Assembly: GCA_017305555.1 (NCBI GenBank)
Contig: JAFKKM010000009.1
Location: forward strand, 124,001-188,000
Direction: 5' to 3'
Origin: Hyphomicrobiales bacterium
Lineage (GTDB): Bacteria > Pseudomonadota > Alphaproteobacteria > Rhizobiales > Xanthobacteraceae
Length of the DNA stretch: 64,000 nt
Shown one piece after another: positions 1 through 21,350 of this stretch (the stretch's first letter is position 1; the number at the start of each line of letters is the position of its first letter). Position numbers and translations under genes: made by a program. Below the pieces are notes generated by a model, which worked only from the letters and a program-made list of their open reading frames with translations, was not told where the DNA came from and did no database searches.

Positions 1-224
1 CCAAAATAGACGAGAAAGACCACCATCAACACCGGAGTTGATTGTATCAACTCGATGTACACAACCGCGATACCATGCAGGACGTGACTTGACGAAATGC
101 GCATCAATGCAACGCAGAACCCGATCATACCACCGCCAATCATGGTGACAGCCGATAGGATCAGCGTCCAGCCTGCTCCGCTCAACAAGTACAGGATGTC
201 ATGGATTCCGAATTGATGAATCAT
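1..224 (-). CDS. Amino-acid ABC transporter permease, 3' part cut by window edge
   Basis: The reverse strand reads an ATG at 224 followed by about 74 codons without a stop to the window edge. The translation has an amphipathic start, a first membrane helix, and the segment VYIELIQSTPVLMVVFL, which matches the conserved ELxRxTPLLVQ region of HisM/GlnP-type permeases. The ATG overlaps the stop of the preceding permease (ATGA at 221-224), so the two are translationally coupled. It would form the inner-membrane channel together with that neighbour, energised by an ATP-binding subunit presumably encoded just outside the window. Substrate cannot be told from this fragment. Confidence 0.85.
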   Translation of the reverse strand, partial: MIHQFGIHDILYLLSGAGWTLILSAVTMIGGGMIGFCVALMRISSSHVLHGIAVVYIELIQSTPVLMVVFLVYF

Positions 225-919
225 ATTCCCGACATCCGCACTTGAGGTTGGACGACCCGACGACGCCGAAACAGCACAAGTCCTAGAAGGGCCAGGATCG
301 AGCGCAGACCAAGAGCCATAGCTATATAGAGCAACGTCGTGATCGTATAAACTTCAATGCTCCGAAACGTTTCACCTTCGATAATCTGCGCAACTGTAGT
401 GAGTTCATTGGCCGCCACGACCGATACGATGCTAGAAGCAAGAAGCGTTAGCGTAAATTGAGCACCCAACGCCGGATAAATGATTTCCAGAGCAGGCATG
501 AAGATAATATGCCGAAAAATCTGAAGACGCGTGAGGCTGAGCGAGAGCCCTGCCTCAAACTGCGTATGTGGGATAGCCTCGATACCCGCACGAATAATCT
601 CGGTTGCATAAGCTCCGAGGTTAACGGTCAGTGCGAATAGCGCGGCTTCCGTGGCCGTAAATTTTACGCCTACGGCGGGCAGACCAAAGAAGAGCAGAAA
701 CACCTGAACCAGCAACGGCGTGTTACGGATGACCTCGACATATGCTCCAACGATCCAATCAAGCCAGCGTGGCCCTTCAGTGCGCGCGAGCGCACCCAGA
801 ATTCCAATAACAGTACCAAAGACAATTGCTTCACCAGAGAGTTGCAGCGTGAGCGCAGCTCCTTCGATGAATCTGTCGCTCTGAGCGAGAACGACGTCGA
901 ATTGGAAGCGATAGCTCAT
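221..919 (-). CDS. Polar amino-acid type ABC transporter permease (HisM/GlnP family)
   Basis: This 232-aa inner-membrane permease shows the family signature VEVIRNTPLLVQVFLLFFGLP in its first half and a typical EAA cytoplasmic loop (QFEAGLSLSLTRLQIFRHII) that contacts the ATPase. About five hydrophobic segments are visible. The open frame extends upstream, but the ATG at 919 (MSYRFQFD) is preferred because the extra N-terminus is basic and unlike the family, and a purine-rich GAAAGG lies upstream. It is followed by an overlapping second permease and preceded by the binding-protein gene, 73 bp away, on the same strand. Family knowledge says amino acids or related small polar solutes; the exact substrate is unknown. 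Confidence 0.9.
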   Translation of the reverse strand: MSYRFQFDVVLAQSDRFIEGAALTLQLSGEAIVFGTVIGILGALARTEGPRWLDWIVGAYVEVIRNTPLLVQVFLLFFGLPAVGVKFTATEAALFALTVNLGAYATEIIRAGIEAIPHTQFEAGLSLSLTRLQIFRHIIFMPALEIIYPALGAQFTLTLLASSIVSVVAANELTTVAQIIEGETFRSIEVYTITTLLYIAMALGLRSILALLGLVLFRRRRVVQPQVRMSGI

Positions 920-992
920 CAGAAAGCGGCCTTTCGTTTGACGCAAAATTGGGATGCCCCTGACGTGGGCACCCCAAAACTGACGGTGAAAG

Positions 993-1787
993 TTAAAAGA
1001 CCGGCAAATCCTTTGCGAGCGGCTTGCCAAACCATTTCATATGAATCCGGTCGAGCTCGCCGTTGACTTTCATCCACGCAATCGTGGTGTTGAGCCATTG
1101 GTGCAGTTCGAATGCATCCTTGCGAACGGTCATCGAGCAAGGAATGCTCGCAAATTGGAACTTGATTTCGAACTTCCCCTCCGGAATTCGCTTCATAAAC
1201 TCCTTCACCATAGCGTCAGGATCAGCGCTAGCATCCACCTGGCCCGAGAGCAGCGCCTGGGCTGCACTCGCATCATCGTCGAACCGCGAGATCGTCAGTT
1301 CCGGTATTTTCATGGCACTGAGAATACCCTCTTGCGTGCTTCCGCGGGGAAGCGACACTTTCTTGCCCTTCAGATCATCCAAACTTTTGATATCCGCGGA
1401 CTTTGCCGCCCAGATCACGTGATCGAACGAACAATAGGGTTGGGTATACATCACGGCTTTCGCCCATTCAGGTCGAAGGCCCATGAGGGCCACAAGCATA
1501 TCGACTTTTCCCGACGTGAGTGCGGCGATCCGTGCCGGAACAGCCAGTTCGACAATCTCGACCTTCACCCCCAAGTATTTCCCAAGCAAATTAGCTACGT
1601 CAAAATTATAGCCGACGTGGTTGCCCTTCTCGTCAACAGTATCGAATGGCGGCGAACCGACTTGTACGCCAATAACGACTTTTCCCTTCTTGATGATATC
1701 GTCGACAGTTTGCGCTTGCGCAGAAGACAGCCAAAATAGCAGGGTCACCATCACGGATAGAAACTGAATTGCAGCACGCGGTTTCAT
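993..1787 (-). CDS. Periplasmic solute-binding protein of the ABC importer (SBP family 3)
   Basis: A 264-aa protein with a Sec signal peptide (basic MKPRAA, hydrophobic core, cleavage after AQA near residue 25). The mature part begins TVDDIIKKGKVVIGVQVGSPPF, the normal opening of family 3 extracellular solute-binding proteins. The segment GYNFDVANLLGKYLGVKVEIVE and the GSTQEG turn also fit. The start at 1787 has a strong AGGGAGG ribosome site 5 bases upstream. The reverse frame stays open to 2312, but that extension is rejected. It delivers the substrate to the two permeases downstream. A copy of the 17-bp putative operator lies 260 bp upstream, so it probably belongs to the TrmB-like regulon. 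Confidence 0.92.
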   Translation of the reverse strand: MKPRAAIQFLSVMVTLLFWLSSAQAQTVDDIIKKGKVVIGVQVGSPPFDTVDEKGNHVGYNFDVANLLGKYLGVKVEIVELAVPARIAALTSGKVDMLVALMGLRPEWAKAVMYTQPYCSFDHVIWAAKSADIKSLDDLKGKKVSLPRGSTQEGILSAMKIPELTISRFDDDASAAQALLSGQVDASADPDAMVKEFMKRIPEGKFEIKFQFASIPCSMTVRKDAFELHQWLNTTIAWMKVNGELDRIHMKWFGKPLAKDLPVF

Positions 1788-2046
1788 CGAATCCTCCCTT
1801 GTTACAACGACGTTGTGCTTGTTTTCCTCATTCGCAAATGGCCATCGGCTCAAATACGCGGTGAGGGGCAAGATCGTTCTGAAGGTCAAGAATCGCACCC
1901 CGCAAATCGATATTGTTGTGGCCCCGAGTGCGAACGCTTGTGGGATTTTCTCCCAACCCGGAAATTCCACAACGAACTCGCCTCCCTCACGAACAACAGC
2001 ATCCTCCACAGTCTCGGCCATTCTTGCTAGGAGGATACATGACGCA

Positions 2047-2063
2047 GTAGCTAGAGCAACTAC
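2047..2063 (+). promoter_or_regulatory. Putative TrmB-like operator, copy 1 (importer)
   Basis: GTAGCTAGAGCAACTAC. It shares 15 of 17 positions with the copy at 13600-13616 read on the opposite strand. It is an imperfect palindrome (GTAG...CTAC) upstream of the binding-protein gene. Direct observation is the repeat; operator function is inference. Confidence 0.6.
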
Positions 2064-2472
2064 TTTTTTGCGCTGTCGGTCAAAATGACCCATTCGCCGC
2101 AGGAGACTTGGCCTGAACTCTAAACTGAGCAGCGAGTGCAATGGCCGAAGACGCTGCGTCAGCGACCGCTCAGCAAAGACCCGATGAGCGACTACGCGGG
2201 GCGCGCGTCGATAATTGATGCGCGGCTCCCGCGAAGCAGTGGCCCAACGACAAGGATTATGACTCCGACAGGTTCCGCGAGGCTCTCGCCGTGCGAGGCA
2301 TACACCCCTCAAGTCAAACCACGAAACGCCGATTGAACATGAGCCTGCATTTTCTTATCGGGAATATGTTGTTCGAACTAAACCTTGGCGGCGCCATCCA
2401 CACCTATGACGATCGATGCACCCAAGCGTTATGACCGCCATCTGCATCGCGGTCACCGTCGCCGCCGTAGTC

Positions 2473-2510
2473 TATAAGTTATGATCATAGCACGATCATG
2501 AGAACTTATA
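2473..2510. repeat. 38-bp imperfect dyad
   Basis: TATAAGTT at 2473-2480 is exactly mirrored by AACTTATA at 2503-2510. An inner ATGATC/GATCAT pair lies between them. It is AT-rich compared with its surroundings. It could be an operator, an old mobile-element end or a hairpin; no T-run follows. Confidence 0.4.
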
Positions 2511-3245
2511 TCCAAAGCGCTCATCCAGCTTGATCGCTTTGCGCTTCTGCAGGAAATGAGGCGTCGATCGTTAGGACATCTCGGCCGATAGCAACCCTTA
2601 ACGCTTAAATGCGAGCGCGCATCATAATACGCTTCAACATCTGGCTGGCGCCATTAGCGATGGCGATGACACGCATCGTCGTTTTCATCGCCGATCTTGC
2701 TTATTCTCGCTGCGTTGGCGCGGACGCAGAATATCTGGACAGTCGGAGGTCCATTCGTCATTCCCGCATCACTCATCAAAACCGTCTTGCGGCAATAGTT
2801 ACGTTCGCTCGTTGGACACGAGCGCTGTGACGTTCGGCCCGTTTGCCGACCGATACGCACCGAACGCAACCACTTGGACGATGCGTATTTATCCTCAAGC
2901 GGCCTCGGACAAGCTGTGCAGGTCCATTACGACGATCGCACAAAGATCGCTCACGATATCAACGGCCGATACGTTGCGTGACAACCATGGCTGCCCGTTG
3001 TTGGCATGTTCATGCGCTGGGTTGATACCCGCCCTCGGCATCACACCGTGGTCAACGTCTCGGACTTGCCGAAGGAGCCCACAGCGTCCTCGTAAGATAG
3101 CTCATCCCCCGCAGGCTTGTAGGAGGGCTGCATTAATGCGGCCTGACTGCATCAGAAACTCGGTTACTCTTCCGTCTAGGCTAGCGCCAAGTTGCTGCGG
3201 TCGGCCTAAAATGGCTGGCCTGAAGATTTGTTCAACTTACGTCTT

Positions 3246-4007
3246 TCAGACGAGTGCTCGCATTAGATTGGTGGCAAAGAGACAAATAGCTGCGAGAAGC
3301 AAGGCGCTGATAGCGACACCCTGGAAGAAACGTTCGCCCGCGACGTGAAATAGGCGCGCTCCAATGACGATACTCAGGAAAAAAGCCGGAGCAAGCACAG
3401 TTGCACCAGTCAGCGCTTCGCTGGTGAGCAGGCCATGGAAAGCCAACGAGGCGAACGCGACGATGAGCGCGAGAGCGGAAACGACGATAATACTCGCTCG
3501 CTTCACCGCGGAAACGCCGTCCAGAGCGAGAATATAGAGGACAAGCGGAGGGCCTCCGACACCGCCAAAGCCAGTGAGGAAGCCGGAGAAGAGTCCGGCA
3601 CCTATGTGTCCCCTTACGTCTCGTGGAAAGGGCAGCCCGGATCCTGCAAAGACAAGCACGGCCATGACTGTGACTACGCCGCTGATAGCCAGATTGCTGA
3701 TGGTCGGATCCAGATATACGAGGAGTGTATGTCCAAGCGGAACGGCGACCGCCGCAGCCGGGCTCATGAAGAGCATCAAGCGCCGATCCGCAACTTTCAA
3801 CGCGGCAGGTACCAGCAATAGGCTGGCGAGCCCCTCAAGCAGTGTCCCGATGGCGACAGCTGACGTTGGACCGAGCGCTAGGCTAAGCGCGGGAACGATC
3901 AGGAGTGCCGATCCAAATCCCGTGAATCCGCGTAGGAGGCCCGCGGCGATACCCACGAGCAGGATGAGGCAGACACTCGATGGGTCTCTGCCGAGCGCAG
4001 TCCACAT
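3246..4007 (-). CDS. TSUP (TauE/SafE) family membrane exporter
   Basis: A 253-aa protein that is almost entirely hydrophobic, with about eight membrane segments. It carries the two family repeats, seen as GLLRGFTGFGSALLIVPAL near the N-terminus and GFLTGFGGVGGPPLVLYIL in the middle. TSUP proteins export or import sulfite, sulfoacetate and other small anions; members near catabolic genes often remove sulfite released from sulfonates. The ATG at 4007 lies 11 bp after the stop of the dehydrogenase gene, so it is the distal gene of a unit that may include the aldehyde dehydrogenase and the CoA-ligase genes. The cargo cannot be read from sequence. Confidence 0.88.
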   Translation of the reverse strand: MWTALGRDPSSVCLILLVGIAAGLLRGFTGFGSALLIVPALSLALGPTSAVAIGTLLEGLASLLLVPAALKVADRRLMLFMSPAAAVAVPLGHTLLVYLDPTISNLAISGVVTVMAVLVFAGSGLPFPRDVRGHIGAGLFSGFLTGFGGVGGPPLVLYILALDGVSAVKRASIIVVSALALIVAFASLAFHGLLTSEALTGATVLAPAFFLSIVIGARLFHVAGERFFQGVAISALLLAAICLFATNLMRALV

Positions 4008-4018
4008 GGGGACACCGA

Positions 4019-4801
4019 TCAGGGCAGCGCCTCGGCACCGATAGAGGGGTGAATAATTCCGGCTCCAACGAATCCTCCGTCAACAGCAAGTGTATGGCCC
4101 GTGACATAGGAAGCAGGATCGGACGCAAGGAACAGGGCGCCAGCGACGATCTCCTCGATTCGCCCATACCGACCGAGCGGCACGTCCGCGATCAGCGCGC
4201 GCCGAATCTCTGGTGGTTGCCAAGCTGTCATCGGCGTATCGGTTGGCCCGGGAGCAATGCAATTGACCGTTATACCAGTATGAGCAAGTTCGATCGCCAT
4301 TGTCTGGGCGAGATTAATAACGGCCGCCTTCGAGGCCGCGTACGCCGCCCGATGGGCAGCACCGCGAAAGCCGGTGTTAGACGAAATCAATACAATCCGG
4401 CCCAGGCCCTTCGGGATCATGAAGCGTGCCGTGGCGCGAGCCATCAGGAAAGTGCCCGTCAAATTCACGTCGAGGATCCGACGCCACTCCGAAACCGGGG
4501 TCTCCATGACTGGCATGAGGCGGTTTACGGCCGCGCAGTGAATCAGTACATCTGGCACGCCGAGGTCTTCCGATATTCTAGCCAGCCTGGCTTCAACCAT
4601 TGCTTCTTCACATATATCCAGTTCGTAACCTTGCGCTGTATGTCCGCACGTGATGATCTCGTCAGCGACGGCCTTCGCCGCGCTTGCCTCGATATCACAC
4701 ACACCCACCCGAGCACCTTCCGCGGCGAAGCCGAGCGCCATGCCTCGACCTATCCCTCCGCCTCCGCCTGTGATGATCACGGTCTTATTCGAATATCGCA
4801 T
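4019..4801 (-). CDS. Short-chain dehydrogenase/reductase (SDR)
   Basis: This 260-aa classical SDR has the cofactor loop TGGGGGIGRG (residues 11-20), a D60-type acidic residue region (ELDIC), N113, S140/S141 and the catalytic YAASK (Y154, K158). The acidic end of beta-2 (VCDIEAS) suggests NAD rather than NADP. The C-terminus DGGFVGAG is typical. It likely oxidises a hydroxyl group on the pathway substrate. The ATG at 4801 is chosen over a GTG at 4846 because the family begins at the first beta strand and GAAGAG lies upstream. It is 11 bp from the exporter gene and about 300 bp from the aldehyde dehydrogenase gene. Confidence 0.9.
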   Translation of the reverse strand: MRYSNKTVIITGGGGGIGRGMALGFAAEGARVGVCDIEASAAKAVADEIITCGHTAQGYELDICEEAMVEARLARISEDLGVPDVLIHCAAVNRLMPVMETPVSEWRRILDVNLTGTFLMARATARFMIPKGLGRIVLISSNTGFRGAAHRAAYAASKAAVINLAQTMAIELAHTGITVNCIAPGPTDTPMTAWQPPEIRRALIADVPLGRYGRIEEIVAGALFLASDPASYVTGHTLAVDGGFVGAGIIHPSIGAEALP

Positions 4802-5097
4802 TTTATCGCTCTTCAGCCCGAGACATGAAGCTTCAACCGGTTTCACCGTACGTTAGATCGCTGCGTGTCCGCTGGCAGCGCAAGAAATCCTCTAACCATC
4901 TGTTGCCGAATTCAGAGCAACGGCTAACGATTCGATTTTTGCAGCTGATACACCAGCACCACCGCCAATTATGCTGGCGCGCGAAGGCCTCGAAAAACAG
5001 CAACTCGGATCAATTCATGGACTTGCCAGTACCTCATCAAATCGACCACGGTATGTCTTCGATTGGTCCGCCGCTTTGTAACGCTCGTGCACACGTC

Positions 5098-6525
5098 CTA
5101 AATATTGAAAACAGCGAGGCGCTCCTCTGTCATTTCCTTGATCACATAACGTGGTCCCTCGCGGCCGATCCCGCTGTCTTTCACACCACCATACGGCATG
5201 CCGTCGACTCGCCATGTTGAAGTGCCATTGAGAATAACGCCTCCCGTGCGAAGCCGCCTGATCGCCCGCATCGCCAAAGGAAGGGCGCGCGTGAACAAGC
5301 CACATTGGAGGCCAAACCGGCTCTCGCTGATAGCGTCGAATACCGTCTCGACATCATCGTAGGGCAGAATAGAGACGATCGGGCCGAATGCCTCCTCGCA
5401 AGCGACTTTCATATCGGGCCTGACCTGAGTCATTACGGTCGGCTGCATCAGGGCGCCTTCGCGAGAACCGCCCGTCAAGACGAGCGCCCCGGCGGACACT
5501 GCTTCTGCCACCCAAGATTCGACGCGACGCGCCGCGCCCTCATCAATCATCGGCCCAACATCTGTTTCAGGATCCAGGGGATCGCCTACCTTCATCGCGC
5601 GGACAGCTCGAACCAAACGATCGGCGAACCGATCAGCCACCGAGCGGTGAACGTGCACAATCTGCACAGAGACGCAGCTCTGCCCCGCGAGACGAACCGA
5701 ATTTCGCGCACACATGACGGCCGCCTCGGCTATGTCGGCATCGTCATGGACGATAACCGGACCGATGCCGCCGAGTTCGAGTGCGACGCGGCGAAGGCCG
5801 CACGACTGCTTGATCTGGAGACCGACTCGTGTCGAGCCGGTAAAGCTTATGAAATCGACCCGCGGATCTTGTACAAGCGCCGGGCCGACTTCGTTACCAT
5901 AGACAACATTCAACACGCCGGGAGCAATACCTTCCCCAACAAAGATTTCAACGAGCCGGTGCACCGTCAATGACGCTTGCGGCGGCGGTTTGAGAACGAC
6001 CGTATTGCCTGCGGCGATTGCCGGACCAATCTTATGGCAAACGAGGTTAATCGGTGCATTGAACGGCGTGATCGCCGCGACGACACCTATTGGAAACCGC
6101 AGCATAACGGCGAGCTTGCCAACCCCCATTGGGGCACTGTCGAGCGGCACGTGTTCGCCCTGAATGCGTACAGCCTCCTCGGCCGAAATGATCAGAGTCT
6201 CGATGGACCGCGATATCTCTGCGCGAGCGTCCTTCAAGGCCTTGCCAGTTTCCGCACTCATGCAGGACGCAAGTGCCTCGCACTCCTTGGTAAGGCGTGA
6301 CGCCACCCGACGTAGAAGCGCAGCCCGCTCAAAGGCAGGAGTGTCGGCGGCAATGTCTCGCGCGGCTACCGCTGCCTCGAGAGCATCATCAAGATCGGCG
6401 AGCGTCGATCGCGGCGATGCGCATACAATCAGGTTGCGAAAGGGATCCCGCACGATGTCATGCTGGACAGCTTCCCGCCATTGTCCTCCGATGAGCATCG
6501 GTACGCGCGGTGTCATATCTGACAT
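5098..6525 (-). CDS. NAD(P)-dependent aldehyde dehydrogenase
   Basis: This 475-aa ALDH superfamily enzyme has the expected residues in order: N156 (in ITPFNAPINL) for the oxyanion hole, K179 for the cofactor, FTGSTRVG, general base E250 in ELGG, and catalytic C284 in GQSCVSVQ. EEAFGPIVSILPYDD is the usual C-terminal signature. It would oxidise the aldehyde made by one of the neighbouring dehydrogenases to an acid, which the adjacent CoA synthetase could activate. The ATG at 6525 has GAGG upstream. It sits 13 bp after the CoA-synthetase gene, consistent with one transcript. Residues are close to lactaldehyde/succinate-semialdehyde type ALDHs, but substrate is not determined. Confidence 0.92.
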   Translation of the reverse strand: MSDMTPRVPMLIGGQWREAVQHDIVRDPFRNLIVCASPRSTLADLDDALEAAVAARDIAADTPAFERAALLRRVASRLTKECEALASCMSAETGKALKDARAEISRSIETLIISAEEAVRIQGEHVPLDSAPMGVGKLAVMLRFPIGVVAAITPFNAPINLVCHKIGPAIAAGNTVVLKPPPQASLTVHRLVEIFVGEGIAPGVLNVVYGNEVGPALVQDPRVDFISFTGSTRVGLQIKQSCGLRRVALELGGIGPVIVHDDADIAEAAVMCARNSVRLAGQSCVSVQIVHVHRSVADRFADRLVRAVRAMKVGDPLDPETDVGPMIDEGAARRVESWVAEAVSAGALVLTGGSREGALMQPTVMTQVRPDMKVACEEAFGPIVSILPYDDVETVFDAISESRFGLQCGLFTRALPLAMRAIRRLRTGGVILNGTSTWRVDGMPYGGVKDSGIGREGPRYVIKEMTEERLAVFNI

Positions 6526-6538
6526 GGTAGCCTCGCAT

Positions 6539-7993
6539 TTAATTAGCCGAAGCGGATTTGATCGTGCGCCCGAGGAACATTTCATAGGTGCAGAAATTTC
6601 TTAGGGCTTCCACCGCTTCGGGAATTTCACTGAAGACAGGTACTCCGGCGCTGTTGGCTCCGGCTCGTACTTCGCGCTTCCAGGCTTCGACCTCTGGCCG
6701 ACCATCGGAACGTGCAACGACCACGGTATGCGGATCTCCCTCCCCGCGCTTGTCCGCGTTGATCAAGGAGTCCATCAAGTTTGGAAGGAAGCCCGGAATA
6801 TGACGATAGCCGTAAATGACCGACAGGTTGAGATGCGCCACGATGGCGTGTGGAGACGACATGCATCGTACGATTTCGAGCACCCGTCGGGCGATACGAC
6901 CGCTTTCTTCCTTAAGAACGCTGGCCGGCATGTCGATGGGATTTCCAAGACTTGAGCCGGGCGGCAACTTCAACTTGACCAAGGCGTCATGCGCGTCATC
7001 CCCGATAGCCGCGAGAGAGAAGCCCGCCCTGGCCGCCTCGTCCGCAGCGAGGACACTGGTTCCACCACCGTTGCCAAAGAACATGATCGTCGGTTGGGTA
7101 TCGAGAGGTCGCGGATTCAGCCAACAGCAGACCTGAAGCGCGTCAAGGAACTTATCAAGAGTCGAGGTGAGGATCACTCCGGTCTGCCTGGCGAGCGCTT
7201 CCCAAGCGCGAGCGTTTCCAGCGAGAGCTCCGGTATGGGACTGTGCGGCACGGCTGCCCTGGTGGGTAATACCGCCGACTAGAAGCACCACAGGCTTGCG
7301 ACCCGCGTTTCGTACAAGCCGTTTGAAGAAACCCTGGCCGTCCTTGATGTCCTCGACGTACATACCGACCACACGGGTTGCATCATCGTCCAGGTAAAAG
7401 TCGAGGAGGTCGACAGGACTCACGTCGATGCTGTTGCCGAGGGTGACAAGGCCGGAGAAACGCAGCCCCAGACTCTGCCCACGACGCAGGATGTCCATGC
7501 CGAGTCCGCCACTCTGGCATACGATACCAACAGAGCCCACCTCCGGAATGGCGCCGTCGATGAAGGTCATGCCTCCGCGGGGCGAATGCGTTCCCATGCA
7601 ATTGGGGCCGAGGATACGGAAATTGCCGTCCTTTGCCGCATCTTTCAGCGCCGCCGCCCAGGCACCACCCGCGTTGTGATCAGGGCTTGCCATGATCTGG
7701 GCGAACCGAAGCCGCCCCTCGGCTTGAGCAAGAACGCCGAGGACCTGTGAGGCCGGAACCGTCAGATAGGCATAATCAATCTGTTCAGGCACATCGCTTA
7801 AACTTCGATAGGCTTTCAAACCCTCGATTTCCGACGCGGAGGGATGAAGCGGATAGATCGCCCCTTTGTAACCGAAATCCCTGAGCCCCCGGATAAAGCG
7901 GTTGCCCTGCGCGACAGCTTTCGCCGATGCACCCGCGACGGCGATGCTCCGCGGATTAAAAAGATGTTGGAAATTCGTCCTAGCGATGGTCAT
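6539..7993 (-). CDS. NDP-forming acyl-CoA synthetase, alpha-like (CoA-binding/ligase) subunit
   Basis: A 484-aa protein of the acetate-CoA ligase (ADP-forming) alpha type. It has an N-terminal CoA-binding Rossmann domain (NPRSIAVAGAS), the succinyl-CoA-synthetase-like ligase domain with GPNCMG (129-134) and CQSGGLG (159-165), and the SHTG motif with the presumed phospho-histidine H253. A second ligase-like domain follows. Together with the ATP-grasp subunit upstream it converts an acid plus CoA and NTP to acyl-CoA plus NDP and phosphate (reversible). The ATG at 7993 overlaps the stop of the ATP-grasp gene by 14 bp. In many bacteria the two parts are fused; here they are separate genes. Confidence 0.88.
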   Translation of the reverse strand: MTIARTNFQHLFNPRSIAVAGASAKAVAQGNRFIRGLRDFGYKGAIYPLHPSASEIEGLKAYRSLSDVPEQIDYAYLTVPASQVLGVLAQAEGRLRFAQIMASPDHNAGGAWAAALKDAAKDGNFRILGPNCMGTHSPRGGMTFIDGAIPEVGSVGIVCQSGGLGMDILRRGQSLGLRFSGLVTLGNSIDVSPVDLLDFYLDDDATRVVGMYVEDIKDGQGFFKRLVRNAGRKPVVLLVGGITHQGSRAAQSHTGALAGNARAWEALARQTGVILTSTLDKFLDALQVCCWLNPRPLDTQPTIMFFGNGGGTSVLAADEAARAGFSLAAIGDDAHDALVKLKLPPGSSLGNPIDMPASVLKEESGRIARRVLEIVRCMSSPHAIVAHLNLSVIYGYRHIPGFLPNLMDSLINADKRGEGDPHTVVVARSDGRPEVEAWKREVRAGANSAGVPVFSEIPEAVEALRNFCTYEMFLGRTIKSASAN

Positions 7994-8759
7994 CCGGCCC
8001 CTGCTCCAAAATGAAACGCGCGTCGACCGCGACGATGCCTGTTTCGTCGGCAATGAGTGGATTGATGTCGAACTCTGCGATGCTAACAGTCGTAGTGAAG
8101 ATACCCTCCTCGCCGCCGAGAGCGATCAGAGCGTGGACAATGGCCTCGATATCGACGGGCGGCTTGCCGCGCAGACCCTTGAGCAAGCGGTAGCCCTTCA
8201 GTCCTTCAAGCATGGCGCGGGCATCGTCCGGTCCGAATGGACAGATTGCAAATTTAACGTCCTCCAAAACCTCAGTGAAAATTCCACCAAGGCCACACAT
8301 GATCAGGGGCCCGAAGCGTGGATCACGCATGCCTCCGATGACGATCTCGACACCCTGCTGAACCATCTCCTCGACCAAGAAACCGGTCAGTTCGATATCC
8401 AGGCCGGCAAGCCGATCGCGCATGCGATCACGTTCGACGGCGAGAGCTTGAATATCCTCGATGTTCAGCGCCACCGCGCCGATGTCGCTCTTGTGCAGCG
8501 CTCGCGAGGAGAGCGCCTTCAATGCAAAGGGGGGGCGCAAAGACTGAACGGCCCGATCGAGACTCGTGGTGACGCCGACGCGAATGCCCGTCGCTGTATG
8601 AATCCCAAGCTCGCGCAGAAGTGCTTTGCCGTCATGCTCGTCCAGTGCGCTCATCCTGGATGCTTGGGCGTCAGCGAGAATACGCATGGCGTGGGAGAGG
8701 TCACGTTTTTTTGGTGTTGTGACACGGGTATGCATGGCTACCAGCCTTGTCGGACGCAT
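7980..8759 (-). CDS. NDP-forming acyl-CoA synthetase, ATP-grasp (beta-like) subunit
   Basis: A 259-aa ATP-grasp protein (ATP-grasp_5 type). It shows KALSSRALHKSDIGAVALNI for nucleotide binding, EEMVQQGVEIVIGGMRDPRFGPLIMCGLGGI, which is near-diagnostic of this subunit, and the metal-binding EFDINPL near the C-terminus. It supplies NTP and forms the phospho-histidine on the partner encoded immediately downstream. The ATG at 8759 shares one base with the stop of the carboxyltransferase gene (TGATG), so all three genes are coupled. The pairing with a carboxylase suggests that an acid is first activated and the acyl-CoA then carboxylated, or that a carboxylation product is later cleaved to save energy. 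Confidence 0.88.
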   Translation of the reverse strand: MRPTRLVAMHTRVTTPKKRDLSHAMRILADAQASRMSALDEHDGKALLRELGIHTATGIRVGVTTSLDRAVQSLRPPFALKALSSRALHKSDIGAVALNIEDIQALAVERDRMRDRLAGLDIELTGFLVEEMVQQGVEIVIGGMRDPRFGPLIMCGLGGIFTEVLEDVKFAICPFGPDDARAMLEGLKGYRLLKGLRGKPPVDIEAIVHALIALGGEEGIFTTTVSIAEFDINPLIADETGIVAVDARFILEQGPDDHR

Positions 8760-10321
8760 CAATAGCTTGTGGGCCAGTTGGCAAGGCGATGTTGTCCTAT
8801 CACCCCTTCCGGTTTCGCAGAAAGGACGTTCAGACTGTCAATGAGGAAGTCCCTAGTGTCGCGCGGATCTATGACAGCCTGCGCTTCGAACAGTTCGGCA
8901 AGCGCCCATGCCGAACTGTCATTTGAAATCTCCGCCACGAGCCTATCGAAGCGCTCGGGGTCATCCTCACGCTTTAGACCGTGGAGGACATTGACGCCGA
9001 CCTGAGGGTCCATGAAGCCGAAATCGGCGGTCGGCCACGCGGCTGCAAAATCGGAGTTCCGTCCGCCACCCATGTTAAGATAGGCTTGCCCATAGTTCTT
9101 ACGCATTGTGATGGCGATGCGAGGCACAGTCACCTGAGACAGGGCGCTCACCCAATTCATGATTCGGCCCGGCGCCCAGCGTTTCTCTCCATCAATGCCG
9201 ATCAGAAAGCCAGGCTGGTCAACAAGGAATATCAGCGGGATGTTGAACGAGTCGCAATGCACCACGAAGCTCGTCGCTTTGCGCATGGAATTGACGTCGA
9301 TAGCCCCACCACGATGCATCGGGTTGTTGGCGATAAATCCAACCACCTTTCCTCCGACGCGCGCCAACGTTGTTACGATTGAGCGACCGAAACGCGGCTT
9401 TAGTTCGAATAGACTACCCTTATCGACGATGGCCTGAAGAATGCGACTGGAGTTGTAAACCTTGGAGCGCTCGGCAGGCAGGATGTCGAGAATGGTTTTT
9501 ACCGCATCCCCGGACCCAGGCGGGATCTCGGCCACCGGCGCGACAGCAGCGGCACTGCTTGGCATATAGCCGAGATAGCGCTTCACGATATCTAGCGCCT
9601 CTTCGTCGGTTTCTGCAGCCACATCTACGAGACCGGTTTCCTCCGTGTGCAGTCGCCAGCCACCGAGCGCTTCGGGATCCACGTGCTGCTTAATGGCAAT
9701 CGAAGTAACACGGCTCGAGGCGACAGCCATGGTTGCCCCCTTACGCATAACTACGAAGTCGGACATGCAGGCATACCATGTGGACGAGCCGTAGCAGTCT
9801 CCAAGGAGAGCGGAGACCAGAGGAACCTCTCTCAAGCGACGAAATTCGGTCGGATCCTGCCCAAGAATCGCGCGGCCGGGAGCACCCATTCTATCCGGCA
9901 TGCGAGCACCAGAGCTTTCTCCGAGCATCACCAGTGGCACGCCGCTTTTGATGGCCAATTCCTTAACGTGCTTGATTTTCTTGCCATTGATAACGCTAGA
10001 GGACGCGCCCATCACGGTGAAATCGTTAGAGACGACAGCTACCCGCCGGCCACCTATGCTACCGAAGCCCGCGATCTTACCATCGGCAGGCGTCTTTTCG
10101 CGCACCTCAGCGCGATGCGACGCAGCAAAACGACCAACCTCGAAGAAGCTTTTCTTGTCGAGAAGGTAATCCAGCCGCTCACGCGCGTTAAGCACACCGT
10201 CAGCCTTGCGCTTCGCAAGCTTCTCGGCTCCGCCCATGGCGAGCGCCTTCGCATTTCGCTTATCCAGTTCGGCAAGCATGCCATCAAACGGATGGGCGTC
10301 AGACCTAGCGACTTTGCTCAT
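8759..10321 (-). CDS. Biotin-dependent acyl-CoA carboxylase, carboxyltransferase subunit
   Basis: A carboxyltransferase of about 520 aa with both crotonase-like halves. The N-terminal half carries ARERLDYLLDKKSFFEVG and ESSGARMPD, and the C-terminal half carries NPMHRGGAIDVNSMRKATSFV and DQPGFLIG. This is the acyl-CoA carboxylase beta architecture (propionyl-CoA, methylcrotonyl-CoA and relatives), not acetyl-CoA carboxylase AccA/AccD. It works with the biotin carrier and biotin carboxylase encoded divergently. Two starts are possible: ATG 10336 with a weak upstream site, and ATG 10321, which has GGAG 9 bases ahead and is preferred. Operator copy 2 lies just upstream. Acyl substrate is unassigned. 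Confidence 0.9.
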   Translation of the reverse strand: MSKVARSDAHPFDGMLAELDKRNAKALAMGGAEKLAKRKADGVLNARERLDYLLDKKSFFEVGRFAASHRAEVREKTPADGKIAGFGSIGGRRVAVVSNDFTVMGASSSVINGKKIKHVKELAIKSGVPLVMLGESSGARMPDRMGAPGRAILGQDPTEFRRLREVPLVSALLGDCYGSSTWYACMSDFVVMRKGATMAVASSRVTSIAIKQHVDPEALGGWRLHTEETGLVDVAAETDEEALDIVKRYLGYMPSSAAAVAPVAEIPPGSGDAVKTILDILPAERSKVYNSSRILQAIVDKGSLFELKPRFGRSIVTTLARVGGKVVGFIANNPMHRGGAIDVNSMRKATSFVVHCDSFNIPLIFLVDQPGFLIGIDGEKRWAPGRIMNWVSALSQVTVPRIAITMRKNYGQAYLNMGGGRNSDFAAAWPTADFGFMDPQVGVNVLHGLKREDDPERFDRLVAEISNDSSAWALAELFEAQAVIDPRDTRDFLIDSLNVLSAKPEGVIGQHRLANWPTSY

Positions 10322-10350
10322 TAGCGTGTGCTCCATGGAATTCTTTAGTG

Positions 10351-10367
10351 GTTGTTAAAACAACTAC
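10351..10367 (+). promoter_or_regulatory. Putative TrmB-like operator, copy 2 (leftward carboxylase operon)
   Basis: GTTGTTAAAACAACTAC, lying 30 bp upstream of the carboxyltransferase start. It is part of a longer dyad, GTGGTTGTT/AACAACTAC, across 10348-10367. It matches the family of four copies at 12 or more of 17 positions. Confidence 0.6.
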
Positions 10368-10433
10368 TTTGACTCATCTATAACGTGATTTTCACGACCG
10401 GGCAATCACCAAAATATCTGGGTGGGAAAAATA

Positions 10434-10450
10434 GTAGTTGCTTGAGCAGC
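10434..10450 (-). promoter_or_regulatory. Putative TrmB-like operator, copy 3 (rightward biotin genes)
   Basis: On the minus strand this reads GCTGCTCAAGCAACTAC, sharing AAGCAACTAC with the copy at 13600. It lies about 46 bp before the biotin-carrier ATG, facing opposite to copy 2, as expected for a divergent promoter pair. Confidence 0.58.
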
Positions 10451-10495
10451 CATCATGCTAAATAATAGCGTCGATGTCTACAAAGGAACACGCTT

Positions 10496-10723
10496 ATGGG
10501 AACCGTCGACATAAATAGTGAAATGACCGGTAGTGTCTGGAAAATTGTTGTCGAAACAGGCCAGCGATTAGCTCAAGACGACACCATCATGATCATGGAG
10601 TCGATGAAGATGGAGATTCCTGTATTGGCGCCGGAAGACGGTATCGTCACTGAAATCGCAGTCGCCGAGGGCGACCCGGTTACCGAGGGAATGCTGGTCG
10701 CGCGCATGTCGAGAGAGGCATGA
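10496..10723 (+). CDS. Small biotin carboxyl carrier protein
   Basis: A 75-aa single biotinyl domain with the modification site MESMKME, biotin being attached to K38. The half-repeats around it (GSVWKIVVETGQRLAQDD and GIVTEIAVAEGDPVTEGMLV) are the standard hammerhead fold. It carries carboxybiotin between the biotin carboxylase 5 bp downstream and the carboxyltransferase encoded on the opposite strand. AAGGAA precedes the ATG at 10496. A free-standing carrier this short is unusual for acyl-CoA carboxylases, where it is normally fused to the carboxylase. The gene is short but the motif makes the assignment firm. Confidence 0.93.
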   Translation: MGTVDINSEMTGSVWKIVVETGQRLAQDDTIMIMESMKMEIPVLAPEDGIVTEIAVAEGDPVTEGMLVARMSREA

Positions 10724-10727
10724 AACT

Positions 10728-12104
10728 GTGAAAAAAGTACTGATCGCCAACCGGGGTGAAATTGCGCGGCGCATCGTGTCGACCTGCCGACACATGGGGA
10801 TTGCGACCGTCGCGGTGTATTCCGACGTGGACAGCGGCGCGGCCCATGTCATGGAATCCGATGAGGCTTATCCGCTCGGCGGGGCGCTCGCCCGTGACAG
10901 CTATCTGCGGGTGGACAGATTGATGGAAGCAGCGGCCAGGAGCGGCGCGGACGCTGTCCATCCCGGATACGGGTTTTTGTCGGAGAACGCGGAGTTCGCC
11001 GAAGCGGTGACCGCGACTGGGCTCACCTGGATCGGGCCGTCGCCGGCCACGATTCGCACGATGGGCGACAAGCAGCGCGCGAGAGAGACGGCAATGGCCG
11101 CAGGCGTCCCTGTCGTGCCCGGAAGCCGGCGCTTCGAGCCCGACGACCTTGACGGGCTTGAACAGGCTGCTGCGGAAGTCGGCTTTCCGCTGCTCGTGAA
11201 AGCGGCCGCTGGAGGCGGCGGAATTGGAATGCAGCGCATCGACCAGGAGAGAAAGCTGAGGGACGTGGTAACCGCCGTGCAGAGCGCCGCTGTAAAATCC
11301 TTCGGCAACGGCGCAGTCTATCTGGAGCGGCTAATTCCAAGAGCCCGACATGTCGAGGTTCAAGTCTTTGGCTTGGGGAACGGCACCGCGCTGCACATGG
11401 GCGAGCGCGATTGCTCCGTGCAACGAAGGTTTCAGAAGGTGATCGAGGAGACGCCCGCGCCAGGACTGCCCGAAGGCGTGCGCCAAAAAATGATCTCGGC
11501 GGCGCTGTCTCTCTCCAGTGCCAGCCGATATGCTGGGGCGGGTACGGTGGAGTTCATTGTCGATGCAAGCAGCTTCGATTTCTATTTTCTGGAGATGAAC
11601 ACGCGCATTCAGGTCGAGCATCCCGTGACGGAGATGGTGACAGGCATCGACTTGGTGCGGCTGCAGCTTGAACTCGCATCCGGCATACCCCTGTCGCAGC
11701 ACCAGAAAAACATTGTCGCCAGAGGGGCAAGCATTGAATGTCGGCTCTATGCCGAAAAGCCGGCAAAGATGTTTATGCCTTCCCCGGGTCCATTGAATCG
11801 ATTCCGCATGCCGCAGGCTTCCGCGCACCTGCGCATCGATTCCGGTTATCGCGAGGGCGATACTATCAGCCCCTACTATGACCCGATGGTGGCCAAGATC
11901 ATCGTACGAGGGGCGAACCGCGAGGAGGCACGGTCACGCATGATCGCAGCTCTGGAATCCGTTGAGGTGGATGGCATCAGCACAAATCGCGACTTTTTGA
12001 TTGCCTGCATTTCGACGGAGGCATTCGCCAAAGGCGACATCTATACCGGGTTCGTCGACGACCATAAGCCGCAACTCTTGCCGCGCACCGTGCTGGCGAC
12101 CTGA
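10728..12104 (+). CDS. Biotin carboxylase subunit of acyl-CoA carboxylase
   Basis: A 458-aa ATP-grasp enzyme beginning KKVLIANRGEIARRI. It has HPGYGFLSENAEFAEAV, the glycine-rich loop KAAAGGGGIGM, HVEVQVFG, GERDCSVQRR and EMNTRIQVEHPVTEMVTGIDLV, all diagnostic of biotin carboxylases. It carboxylates the biotin of the carrier protein with bicarbonate and ATP. It starts with GTG at 10728, only 4 bp after the carrier stop, so the two are co-transcribed and form one enzyme with the divergent carboxyltransferase. The length of about 450 aa is that of an unfused biotin carboxylase. It is convergent with the regulator gene downstream. Confidence 0.95.
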   Translation: MKKVLIANRGEIARRIVSTCRHMGIATVAVYSDVDSGAAHVMESDEAYPLGGALARDSYLRVDRLMEAAARSGADAVHPGYGFLSENAEFAEAVTATGLTWIGPSPATIRTMGDKQRARETAMAAGVPVVPGSRRFEPDDLDGLEQAAAEVGFPLLVKAAAGGGGIGMQRIDQERKLRDVVTAVQSAAVKSFGNGAVYLERLIPRARHVEVQVFGLGNGTALHMGERDCSVQRRFQKVIEETPAPGLPEGVRQKMISAALSLSSASRYAGAGTVEFIVDASSFDFYFLEMNTRIQVEHPVTEMVTGIDLVRLQLELASGIPLSQHQKNIVARGASIECRLYAEKPAKMFMPSPGPLNRFRMPQASAHLRIDSGYREGDTISPYYDPMVAKIIVRGANREEARSRMIAALESVEVDGISTNRDFLIACISTEAFAKGDIYTGFVDDHKPQLLPRTVLAT

Positions 12105-12140
12105 TCTACGTATTGAAGACGTTTCCAGAAGCGCTTCCGG

Positions 12141-12155
12141 CTGTCGAACCGACAG
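12141..12155. terminator. Small hairpin between convergent genes
   Basis: CTGTCG and CGACAG pair around a 3-base loop in the 80-bp gap between the convergent biotin carboxylase and regulator genes. There is no T-run, so a terminator role is only suggested by position. Confidence 0.3.
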
Positions 12156-12184
12156 TCAGCCCCACAGAATGAGAGCTTACGCTG

Positions 12185-13138
12185 TCATTTGAGCGCTTTT
12201 CTGGCAGATCGCCGACGCTGAGCGGGGACCGTTGCGGCAATCTGTTTGGCGCGCGGCGCGAAGGTATCGACACCCAGCGCATGCATCCTATCTCGCAGGA
12301 TGGAGAATTGTTCCGTCGAAAAAGTCTGTTCGCGCAAAGAGTAAAGGATGGGTCCAAATTTCTCGTCGATCTCTTTGCCGAAATACTTGAAGATTTCGGC
12401 GAGATAATAGTCGTGGCGGATCAATGATTCTGCCATGCGAACGACCGGCTCGCTGATTGTGTACGCCCCAAGCATATCGTCGGCGAGACGTGCTGTTAGC
12501 GCCGTCTTGTAGTCGCTCGTTATCGTAAAGAGATTATCCGCTCCGCCCATGCGGATACCATTTCCTTCATGCAAATAAACGCTGCAGGTCGGGCCGTAGA
12601 CAAATGGCGCCACATCTGAACCGAAAAGGATAATCAAAATTTTGACACCCCTCTTGGCCGCCTTCCGCAACTGTTCCGAGTGTCGGTTCAGCACGTCCTC
12701 CGCGGCCTTGATCCAGACGTGCTCCTTGGCGTCATCGATCATCTCGCCAATCTTGGCGGTGATGTCGGCTTGGCCAACGATGGTCCAGACGACGTCCAGC
12801 CCGCTCTCACCCTCAAGATGTCTAAGGCCTGCCTCAAGCCGGCCGCAGACCGCATTCACCTCGCGCGACCACTGACCAAGAAGCGCCGACGGCTCGACCG
12901 GAACATAACGCACCGGATTTTGGCTGACAGGCTGAACGGCCATTTTTTTGGTGAGGCTCTCAAGCGCGGCGTATGTGTTCGAGCGTGGTAGCCCGGTTTC
13001 CTTGCTCACTTCGTAAGCGGTCACCGACGGCGACTGCAGCAAACTGAGATAGATACGGGCTTCGTACTCTGAAAAACCAAGCCGCTGAAGATCGGCAAGC
13101 AGGGCCTGTCTTTGCTTTTGACCGTGATTTTTAGACAT
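12185..13138 (-). CDS. TrmB-family transcriptional regulator
   Basis: A 317-aa protein. Residues about 10-80 form the TrmB winged helix-turn-helix (LQRLGFSEYEARIYLSLLQ, YEVSKETGLPRSNTYAALESL). The C-terminal part resembles the phospholipase-D-like effector domain of TrmB relatives (VWIKAAEDVLNRHSEQLRKAAKRGVKILIILFG). TrmB proteins are mostly archaeal sugar sensors and are uncommon in Proteobacteria. The ATG at 13138 is chosen over an upstream ATG at 13192 because the domain begins there. It is surrounded by four copies of a shared palindrome-like 17-mer, so it is the best candidate for the local regulator. The ligand is presumably the pathway substrate or a CoA ester. Confidence 0.85.
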   Translation of the reverse strand: MSKNHGQKQRQALLADLQRLGFSEYEARIYLSLLQSPSVTAYEVSKETGLPRSNTYAALESLTKKMAVQPVSQNPVRYVPVEPSALLGQWSREVNAVCGRLEAGLRHLEGESGLDVVWTIVGQADITAKIGEMIDDAKEHVWIKAAEDVLNRHSEQLRKAAKRGVKILIILFGSDVAPFVYGPTCSVYLHEGNGIRMGGADNLFTITSDYKTALTARLADDMLGAYTISEPVVRMAESLIRHDYYLAEIFKYFGKEIDEKFGPILYSLREQTFSTEQFSILRDRMHALGVDTFAPRAKQIAATVPAQRRRSARKALK

Positions 13139-13277
13139 AGTGTTTAAGCTCGCTGAAGTGATCGAAATCGCCACCCCTCTTCGGCGCGGCACTCATATCA
13201 CTATATCCATTGCGGCGATGCCGTGCGAGAGCCTTTCAGGATTCATCGCCACCGACGGAATGACAGGGAGGCGCGCT

Positions 13278-13571
13278 TCACGGTTCGAACCTGTCCGCGA
13301 GGATTCGGACGCGCTCATGCAGCATGTGTTCGATCGCCGCCATGAACTTCTCGCAGTATGGTTGTCGGAAATGCTCCCTCCACGCGGCCTCGTCGACATA
13401 TATCTCGACCAGAAAACCTGTATTGGAATCTTCGCGCGAGGCGACAACGTCAAACTGGAGACAGCCAGGCTCGGAACGCGCCGACCGAGCGTTGATGATC
13501 GCATGGTCCAGCCATTCCGCCCGCAGGCCCGGCTTCAGCCGGTGCGTCGCCAGCACTACGAATGCGGGCAA
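13278..13571 (-). CDS. ABM-domain protein (antibiotic biosynthesis monooxygenase / YgiN-like)
   Basis: A 97-aa ferredoxin-fold dimer protein. It shows FVVLATHRLKPGLRAEWLDHA, then SEPGCLQFDVVASREDSNTGFLVEIYVDEAAWREHF, the standard ABM order, with the GCLQFDV strand well conserved. The start is most likely TTG at 13571, because AGGAG lies 7 bases upstream. An ATG at 13619 would place the operator inside the coding region and add an atypical N-terminus. ABM proteins act on quinones or small carbonyl compounds, or only bind them. It is divergent from the alcohol dehydrogenase and upstream of the regulator gene on the same strand, with operator copy 4 between. Confidence 0.8.
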   Translation of the reverse strand: MPAFVVLATHRLKPGLRAEWLDHAIINARSARSEPGCLQFDVVASREDSNTGFLVEIYVDEAAWREHFRQPYCEKFMAAIEHMLHERVRILADRFEP

Positions 13572-13599
13572 TTTCAATCTCCTCAACGTCGTGAAAAAA

Positions 13600-13616
13600 G
13601 TAGTTGCTTTAGCTAC
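13600..13616 (-). promoter_or_regulatory. Putative TrmB-like operator, copy 4 (ABM gene / alcohol dehydrogenase)
   Basis: The plus strand reads GTAGTTGCTTTAGCTAC. It lies between the divergent ABM gene (start 13571) and dehydrogenase gene (start 13701), 28 bp from the first. It is the clearest match to copy 1. Confidence 0.6.
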
Positions 13617-13700
13617 CATTAATTGTTGCCCCCTGTCCAGTTCGCATGTAGGGTCCGAACACTCGTTGAGCGTCCGCGAAATCCTAGAAGGAGATCTACC

Positions 13701-14732
13701 TTGAAGGCACTACTCGTTCGTGGACCGAACGACTTCTCAGTCGTCGACAGGCCAGATCCCGTTCCGGCGACCGGCACGGCCATCCTGCGCATTCATTACA
13801 CGGGCATTTGTGCGACCGATATTGCCACGATTGCGGGCCAAAGCACGGTTGCGCGTTTTCCGATGACCCCCGGCCATGAATTCATCGCCCAGATCGAGAA
13901 GATCGAGGAGGACTCTGAATTTCGCGTGGGCGACTGGGTCACCATCTATCCGACGGAGGGTTGCGGCACCTGTTCCGCTTGCCGAGAAGGCCACCCCAAC
14001 CATTGCCCTGACTTCAAGGTCTGGGGGGTCAGCCGGGACGGCGGCGCCTTTGCGGAGCGCATGGTGGTGCCAGTCAAGCAGCTTCTGCCGGTGCCGGAGC
14101 GGCTGCGCAACAGCGCCGGGGCTCTCATCGAGCCAACAGCGGTCGCGGTCCACGCATTGCGGCGAGCGCGGCTTGAGACAGGGCAGCGAGTGGCGATCAT
14201 CGGAATCGGATCAATAGGGCTTCTGATCGCGCAGGCCGCCCGCGCTGGCGGGGCCGCGCAGGTAACGCTCGTAGACCGCCTTCCAGGCCGGCGCGCTACA
14301 GCCGAGGCTCTGGGCTTTTCCGACTTCATGCTTGCCTCGAACGGAAATCTCGCCAACGAACTTTCGCAAGCACCGGGCGGTCCTTTCGATATCGTGTTCG
14401 ATACCGTTGGCATTCCCGCTACTCTCGAGGCGGCCATAGCCTCGCTGAGGATCACGGGGTATCTCGTCGCCCTCGCCTTCCCGCATGGAGACGAGTCCCT
14501 GACGCTGCCCTACCGAATGTTCTACCGCAAAGAGCTCTCGCTGATCCTGTCCCGCAACTATGCCCGAGACGATTTCATCGAAGCAACGAGGCTCCTTGAT
14601 TCCGGAGCCATCGCATCGGACGTCATGATTACCGGCAGCTTTCCGCTCTCCAGGTTCGCCTTGGCTCTCGATGCTCTGCGCCAGCAACCTGCGGACCATA
14701 TTAAAGTGCTCATTAATCCATCAATCGAGTGA
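13701..14732 (+). CDS. Zinc-dependent medium-chain alcohol dehydrogenase
   Basis: A 343-aa MDR enzyme. The catalytic zinc ligands are in CATDIATI and GHEFIAQIE, and the structural zinc set is GCGTCSACREGHPNHC. The nucleotide fold has GIGSIGLLIAQAA, followed by VDRLPGRR, where the acidic residue indicates NAD. It resembles threonine/sorbitol dehydrogenase-like enzymes. The start is TTG at 13701 with AAGGAG 7 bases upstream; the frame is open further upstream but without a ribosome site. It probably oxidises an alcohol in the same pathway as the aldehyde dehydrogenase. It carries its own operator copy upstream and is transcribed away from the rest of the cluster. Confidence 0.9.
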   Translation: MKALLVRGPNDFSVVDRPDPVPATGTAILRIHYTGICATDIATIAGQSTVARFPMTPGHEFIAQIEKIEEDSEFRVGDWVTIYPTEGCGTCSACREGHPNHCPDFKVWGVSRDGGAFAERMVVPVKQLLPVPERLRNSAGALIEPTAVAVHALRRARLETGQRVAIIGIGSIGLLIAQAARAGGAAQVTLVDRLPGRRATAEALGFSDFMLASNGNLANELSQAPGGPFDIVFDTVGIPATLEAAIASLRITGYLVALAFPHGDESLTLPYRMFYRKELSLILSRNYARDDFIEATRLLDSGAIASDVMITGSFPLSRFALALDALRQQPADHIKVLINPSIE

Positions 14733-17209: not shown

Positions 17210-17212
17210 TGA

Positions 17213-21350
<4,138 letters not shown>

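Follow-up and report, generated by a model that had tools for sequence, protein, structure and literature searches.

A 20-bp palindrome as the predicted operator of a TrmB-family regulator in an alphaproteobacterial catabolic gene cluster

The gene cluster and its palindromic sites

The 64,000-nucleotide stretch analysed here (the window) belongs to a contig (C153; GenBank JAFKKM010000009.1) of a Hyphomicrobiales bacterium of the family Xanthobacteraceae and carries, near its left end, a cluster of genes for an ATP-binding cassette (ABC) importer, dehydrogenases, an ADP-forming acyl-coenzyme A (acyl-CoA) ligase and a biotin-dependent carboxylase, together with one for a TrmB-family regulator (Table 1). 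Set among these genes are copies of a 20-bp imperfect palindrome that very likely serves as operator for the product of the regulator gene (window 12185-13138). The sites, their clustering, their conservation in other genera and their co-occurrence with TrmB are observed; direct binding by the protein, its dimeric state, repression, autoregulation and response to a ligand are what we infer from sequence alone.

Table 1. Predicted genes and operator sites of the cluster, in window positions. Scores are those of a position matrix trained on four loci of other genomes (own-excluded matrix; see text). ORF, open reading frame.
Feature	Position	Strand	Basis and remarks
ABC-importer permease	221..1030	-	Profile match; further permease and ATPase gene left of window
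ABC-importer solute-binding protein, family 3	993..1787	-	PF00497; start ATG 1787
Operator site 1	2044..2063	no strand	GCAGTAGCTAGAGCAACTAC; score 25.3; 256 bp upstream of solute-binding-protein start
TauE/SafE-type exporter	3246..4007	-	PF01925
Short-chain dehydrogenase	4019..4846	-	Profile match
Aldehyde dehydrogenase	5098..6585	-	Closest NCBIfam models, both under cut-off: lactaldehyde and sulfoacetaldehyde dehydrogenase
ADP-forming acyl-CoA ligase, alpha-type domains	6539..8053	-	Profile match
ADP-forming acyl-CoA ligase, ATP-grasp part	7980..8762	-	PF13549
Acyl-CoA carboxylase carboxyltransferase subunit	8759..10336	-	Profile match
Operator site 2	10348..10367	no strand	GTGGTTGTTAAAACAACTAC; score 25.4; 11-26 bp upstream of carboxyltransferase (ATG 10336 or 10321)
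Operator site 3	10434..10453	no strand	GTAGTTGCTTGAGCAGCCAT; score 16.6, lowest of six; 42 bp upstream of biotin-carrier start
Biotin carrier protein	10496..10723	+	PF00364
Biotin carboxylase	10728..12104	+	Profile match
TrmB-family regulator	12185..13138	-	317 amino acids from ATG 13138 (ORF extends to 13192); PF01978
ABM-domain protein	13278..13571	-	PF03992
Operator site 4	13600..13619	no strand	GTAGTTGCTTTAGCTACCAT; score 21.9; gap between divergent ABM (-) and zinc alcohol dehydrogenase (+)
Zinc alcohol dehydrogenase	13701..14732	+	Profile match; longer ORF

A sequence-only reading of the window had described four 17-bp copies of an operator-like motif sharing at least 12 of 17 positions. 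All four are found at the coordinates and on the strands it gave, and by hand count each pair shares at least 13/17. A search of the 64 kb with GTWGCTARAGCAACTAC, allowing up to three mismatches, returned these four copies and none besides (100 shuffles: mean 0.17, largest 2), and the relaxed 17-mer GYWGYTMRARCAACTAC matched exactly only at the same four places in the whole 5.17-Mb assembly, where the looser GYWGYTNNARCAACTAC gave five exact matches, all on contig C153 and the fifth outside the window. The copies are thus real, but the unit is 20 bp, the 17-mer being the palindrome minus three bases of one arm, and the copy number is six, with two extra copies left of the window at C153:117796-117815 and C153:119249-119268 (6.2 and 4.7 kb, respectively, from the window start at 124001). 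The six span C153:117796-137619, a single catabolic stretch of 19.8 kb that includes the trmB gene.

Genome-wide, the degenerate 20-mer GTNGYWGYTNNARCWRCNAC occurs exactly at three places, all in the cluster, and with one mismatch at seven, three of which are in the cluster; for the four outside, the own-excluded matrix gives scores of 16.5, 10.8, 9.0 and 4.4. Equally good copies spread at random, which the sequence-only reading had named as a refutation, are therefore not seen in the genome, as the best 20-mer matches gather in the cluster with the exception of one stray. At the loose level of up to three mismatches there is no enrichment (472 places in the genome versus 3562 for the reversed control), so that the concentration in the cluster holds for the best matches only. 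These loose matches are what could be cited for a chance similarity or a dispersed repeat, an explanation that we regard as negligible, since the best matches are packed into 19.8 kb of the 5.17-Mb assembly and reappear at the corresponding promoters of other loci, and since the matrix test on untrained loci (below) also speaks against chance.

Compared across several genomes, the motif is an even-centred imperfect palindrome, GTAGTWGCTW-WAGCWACTAC, with the half-site GTAGTWGCTW (base frequencies G 0.91, T 0.93, A 0.76, G 0.96, T 0.84, T/A, G 0.96, C 0.71, T 0.73, W). Site statistics were drawn from 29 operator sites in 11 genomes or plasmids. Positions 6/15 read AA in 10 sites, TT in nine, TA in nine, TG in one and AT in none; half-site position 6 is thus mostly T or A, but every one of the 29 sites has T in one half or in both, and none has A in both, which an asymmetric dimer may explain, or else a promoter element that overlaps the site. 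Such variation between half-sites would be compatible with a dimeric DNA-binding protein. It bears also on whether the copies could be RNA hairpins or weak terminators, as the run TTTTTT that follows sites 1 and 4 on one strand, and the presence of at least five T in the eight adjoining bases on either strand at 13/29 sites, might suggest. Because only 9/29 sites have a Watson-Crick pair at positions 6/15, an RNA stem is not the conserved feature; moreover, the hairpins predicted for the 20-mers are at -1.0 to -7.3 kcal/mol, the T-rich flank is absent at 16/29 sites, and the copies in the cluster lie upstream of genes and none behind them. We consequently disfavour this explanation as highly improbable.

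By distances read by eye from the sequence, each of the six sites precedes a start codon by 11-256 bp, five of them by 11-81 bp. Site 4 is 28 bp from the ABM start and 81 bp from that of the alcohol dehydrogenase; left of the window, one site lies 50 bp upstream of a gene for a thiamine pyrophosphate (TPP) enzyme and the other between a TIM-barrel gene (51 bp) and an NAD-epimerase gene (65 bp). On the strand that does not encode the importer, AGGAGG and then ATGACGCAGTAG (reading M-T-Q-stop; window 2029-2050, +) lead into site 1, probably by chance. Four site-bearing regions were scanned for promoters: two in the window, neither of them that of the site at 2044, one in the adjoining left-hand stretch L015 and one in the relative G128. 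Three contained no promoter-like pair, and the single pair in the fourth was at chance level. As these scans were unconvincing, no site can be positioned relative to -35 and -10 elements, and of the proposal that each copy lies between a gene start and its likely promoter, only the location upstream of the start holds. The same lack of placeable promoters leaves room for TrmB to bind the motif as an activator, or as a dual activator/repressor according to site position, as with archaeal TrmBL1, Tgr and VNG1451C; a review (PMC4158304) describes this dual function, with archaeal TrmB members repressing or activating by position. We consider such a mode of action unlikely, though it is the most serious of the alternatives weighed here, given that the short distance from the start codon of five of the six sites would suit repression.

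Recurrence of the palindrome at TrmB loci

The regulator matches the PF01978 winged helix with 70.2 bits (cut-off 25.6; E 1.3e-19), and among the PF01978 matches of its genome it is by far the strongest, at 73.9 bits, the two others being barely over the cut-off (26.1 and 25.7). It resembles the archaeal TrmB structure PDB 3qph (E 2.7e-9; residues 35-188 of the 335-residue ORF) and TrmBL2 (E 1.4e-7). The C-terminal effector domain PF11495 is also matched (33.8 bits; cut-off 22.2), but over profile positions 2-59 of 233 only. An AlphaFold model built from two sequences had a mean confidence (pLDDT) of 39 and was left unused. The description of this class as rare in Proteobacteria is consistent with what we found for this subfamily, which occurs in 5/198 genomes of the family (E<=1e-30), 6/397 of the order (E<=1e-50), 1/385 of the class (E<=1e-60) and 2/398 of the phylum (E<=1e-40), the window's own genome being counted in each.

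Homologues of the regulator were located by protein search alone. A scan around the first TrmB loci with a palindrome pattern derived from the window (up to one mismatch) found copies in genomes G128 (whose locus L010 is on the same contig as G128:C57), G063 and G052 and on a Sulfitobacter plasmid, and none on two plasmids of Paracoccus, on one of Bradyrhizobium or in G164. Eleven sites from the four positive loci served to build the own-excluded matrix, which, applied to 84 kb, placed the six sites of the cluster at ranks 1-6 (28.1, 25.4, 25.3, 22.3, 21.9 and 16.6), the next score being 8.0; in 200 shuffles the number of sites scoring at least 16 was 0.015. A 17-site matrix was then run on all 11 TrmB loci without a training site, flanks included, and eight of these had at least one site of 16 or more, namely G1043 with three, G873, G1115, G1233 and one Paracoccus plasmid with two each, and G1076, Cupriavidus and Bradyrhizobium with one each, amounting to 14 sites in 288 kb versus a shuffled mean of 0.07 (largest 2, 100 runs). 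The cleanest part of this test, the loci fetched after the matrix had been fixed (G1115, G1076, G1233 and G1043), was positive in 4/4 cases, with eight sites in 84 kb and none in 100 shuffles. By comparison, a 110-kb control, in which the stretches L023, L024, L041, L042 and L025 are more distant flanks of TrmB loci, contained no site of 16 or more; its maximum of 15.8 was the stray on contig C80, included deliberately, and 8.8 was the maximum once four stray regions were removed.

Across the family, GTAGYWGYTNNARCWRCTAC (up to one mismatch) was matched in 7/198 genomes. Four of the five TrmB-bearing genomes carry two or three sites each, all on the trmB contig and within 17 kb of trmB, and G164 carries none; one site each is found in three of the 193 genomes without this TrmB. 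The co-occurrence of motif and TrmB gave a Fisher's exact p of 2.8e-6, a value that ignores kinship and is circular in that the pattern came from those same four genomes. Overall, the palindrome gathers in one cluster and tracks the homologues of that cluster's TrmB elsewhere, which supports the regulon that the sequence-only reading had proposed.

The sites also recur at corresponding promoters of different genera, a correspondence judged by position. All seven loci that hold the carrier, biotin carboxylase, carboxyltransferase and CoA ligase (the window's own, Sulfitobacter, G052, G873, G1115, G1233 and G1043, the last three fetched after the matrix was fixed) have a site 42-115 bp upstream of the biotin-carrier match (tblastn positions), and the gene that diverges from the carrier gene in the own locus and in G873 is that for the carboxyltransferase. 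Likewise, a site is present in the epimerase/TIM-barrel gap in the own cluster, G063 and G128; at the TPP-enzyme gene in the own cluster and, between it and the short-chain dehydrogenase, in G063 and G128; and in the ABM/alcohol dehydrogenase gap in the own cluster and G063 (L021:3127). Transporter genes with a site are of different types, being ABC in the own cluster, tripartite ATP-independent periplasmic (TRAP) in G063 and tripartite tricarboxylate in Sulfitobacter. A betaproteobacterial Cupriavidus plasmid has a single strong site, located in the gap upstream of both its trmB ORF (91 bp) and a divergent one (81 bp); at E<=1e-15 it shares with the window only TrmB (35% identity) and a short-chain dehydrogenase (32%).

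This recurrence bears on whether some other regulator, of the LysR or GntR type or encoded elsewhere, binds the motif with TrmB as a mere neighbour. LysR genes do occur at some TrmB loci, and our Pfam scan of the own cluster took in 40 ORFs (window 1-22000 and L015), with the remaining, mostly overlapping ORFs outside it; however, those 40 ORFs include no second regulator family, in agreement with the claim that TrmB is the sole regulator of the cluster, and the motif accompanies TrmB into loci whose remaining genes differ, among them that of Cupriavidus, where it lies in the gap upstream of trmB. We therefore consider binding by another regulator improbable.

Several results weigh against TrmB as the protein that binds the palindrome, or limit the tests made of it. 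The cut-off of 16 was picked after the scores of the own sites had been seen, and the training sites were themselves found with a pattern derived from the window. Three of the 11 untrained loci have no site of 16 or more, their maxima being 15.3 on a Paracoccus plasmid, 9.8 in Aminobacter and 8.8 in G164, whose TrmB is 49% identical. Bradyrhizobium and the other Paracoccus plasmid reach only 16.9-18.5, and both Paracoccus plasmids encode identical TrmB proteins. In the own genome, the stray at C80:44412, which lies within a 751-residue ORF, equals the weakest cluster site with its score of 16.5. Finally, the four scanned regions offer no recognisable sigma-70 promoter against which the sites could be placed.

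In a tree of 11 TrmB proteins, those of G164, Bradyrhizobium and Paracoccus form one group (support 98/95). They share PKAN in the presumed recognition helix, where the own protein and those of G128, G063, G873, G052 and Sulfitobacter have PR(S/A/P)N, and the best copies at their loci drift towards GTAGTAT-N6-ATACTAC. With up to four mismatches, this drifted motif gives 4, 6 and 2 matches at L012, L013 and L019, versus shuffled means of 1.1, 3.2 and 1.2; as these are few over the shuffles, weight can be given only to copies with one or two mismatches. A drift of the operator in parallel with the change in the recognition helix is suggestive, although the Cupriavidus TrmB also has PKAN, yet its site fits the main matrix. 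On Aminobacter niigataensis plasmid p1 (L026), where the motif is weak (9.8), the TrmB relative is in two pieces with no annotated gene there and is apparently broken.

Putative pathway and surroundings of the cluster

The enzymes of the cluster fit the uptake of a polar solute, its oxidation by alcohol, aldehyde and short-chain dehydrogenases, ADP-forming activation with CoA and biotin-dependent carboxylation. From gene order, with some 140 bp between them, the ABM gene and trmB are probably co-transcribed. The TPP enzyme is acetolactate-synthase-like but under every cut-off among the best 25 of 52 families, sulfoacetaldehyde acetyltransferase scoring lower still, and the resemblance of the epimerase and TIM-barrel proteins to sugar enzymes is likewise under cut-off. 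A TauE-type exporter is encoded at the own locus and in G063 and G128, and a sulfate-exporter-type gene near trmB in G873, Sulfitobacter, Bradyrhizobium and Aminobacter, which makes 7/16 loci, with several others only partly scanned. The gene content tentatively suggests a cluster for the catabolism of organosulfonates or related acids. Most target genes do not back the link with archaeal sugar metabolism mentioned in the sequence-only reading, being mainly genes for a carboxylase, a CoA ligase, dehydrogenases and an ABC importer of family 3; they suggest acyl-CoA carboxylation, with an exporter of the sulfite type close by, more than a typical sugar operon.

To the right, the catabolic cluster adjoins an IetAS-type defence pair, an AAA ATPase followed by a subtilase (window 16208-19681, +; PADLOC IetA 239 bits and IetS 107 bits), and an IS110-family transposase gene (19947-21068, +). 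A short ORF at 14794-15177 (-) matches only the C-terminal end of a flavin mononucleotide (FMN) oxidoreductase profile, under cut-off, and is probably a gene remnant. Left of the window on C153, L015:797-4336 and 9092-10141 encode a second biotin carboxylase, a biotin carrier, an OADA/HMGL-type protein and a BioB-like radical-SAM protein; the matrix scan revealed no operator site of 16 or more among this second biotin-carboxylase gene set. Window 1-22000 contains no Rfam family at the gathering threshold, and the 64-kb window no tRNA gene.

Proposed regulation and relation to known TrmB proteins

In the regulatory scheme that we propose, a TrmB dimer would bind the 20-bp palindrome with one winged helix per half-site, at six target regions: upstream of the importer genes, of the carboxyltransferase operon, of the operon for biotin carrier and biotin carboxylase and of the TPP-enzyme gene, and in the two gaps between divergent units, ABM(-trmB)/alcohol dehydrogenase and TIM-barrel/epimerase. 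Most likely, with operators close to the start of each unit, it would repress in the absence of ligand, and a metabolite of the pathway, on binding to the C-terminal part of TrmB, would release it from DNA. Via the ABM-trmB unit, TrmB would also control its own synthesis.

TrmB regulators, known mainly from archaea, account for 12% of transcription factors there versus 0.5% in bacteria (PMC9426492). The motifs given in PMC4158304 are TACT-N3-AGTA and TATCAC-N5-GTGATA for TrmB/TrmBL1 of Thermococcales and TACT-N7-8-GAGTA for TrmB VNG1451C of Halobacterium. With the former, the present system has in common the PF01978 winged helix, palindromes at promoters of uptake and catabolic genes, a C-terminal part, which senses ligands in the archaeal members, and probably self-regulation, which is listed for some of them; it differs in its own 20-bp operator with the half-site GTAGTWGCTW, its bacterial promoters, its acyl-CoA carboxylase, ligase and dehydrogenase targets and the only partial match to PF11495. 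As described in the same source, VNG1451C likewise has spaced inverted half-sites and a regulon of metabolic genes, but its half-site and their arrangement are different, and it is an archaeal regulator exerting sugar-responsive metabolic control. Among bacteria, the annotated TrmB genes of Paracoccus pTAV3, Bradyrhizobium guangxiense p53363 and a plasmid of Sulfitobacter sp. LC.270.F.C4, known to us as annotations, belong to the same subfamily (42-47% identity) and have as neighbours carboxylase and CoA-ligase genes (Sulfitobacter), tricarboxylate-type transporters (Sulfitobacter, Paracoccus) or a sulfate exporter (Sulfitobacter, Bradyrhizobium); unlike the own cluster, the Paracoccus and Bradyrhizobium members go with the drifted motif. 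The regulator itself is of an already known kind, but among the matches listed in open-access literature we found no description of the operator of a bacterial TrmB, nor of this operator, its recurrence in Alpha- and Betaproteobacteria or this set of targets.

More tentatively, and as a proposition to which we would not quite give even chances, a TrmB subfamily extending over several alphaproteobacterial families into Betaproteobacteria may have its own 20-bp operator, co-drifting with the recognition helix, and may, on sensing a ligand other than a sugar, control modular acyl-CoA ligase/carboxylase clusters, several of which also encode exporters of the sulfite or sulfate type. Because the operator is predicted at six sites in one genome and has matches in relatives, it would make this subfamily directly testable and may provide an entry point to the catabolic pathway.

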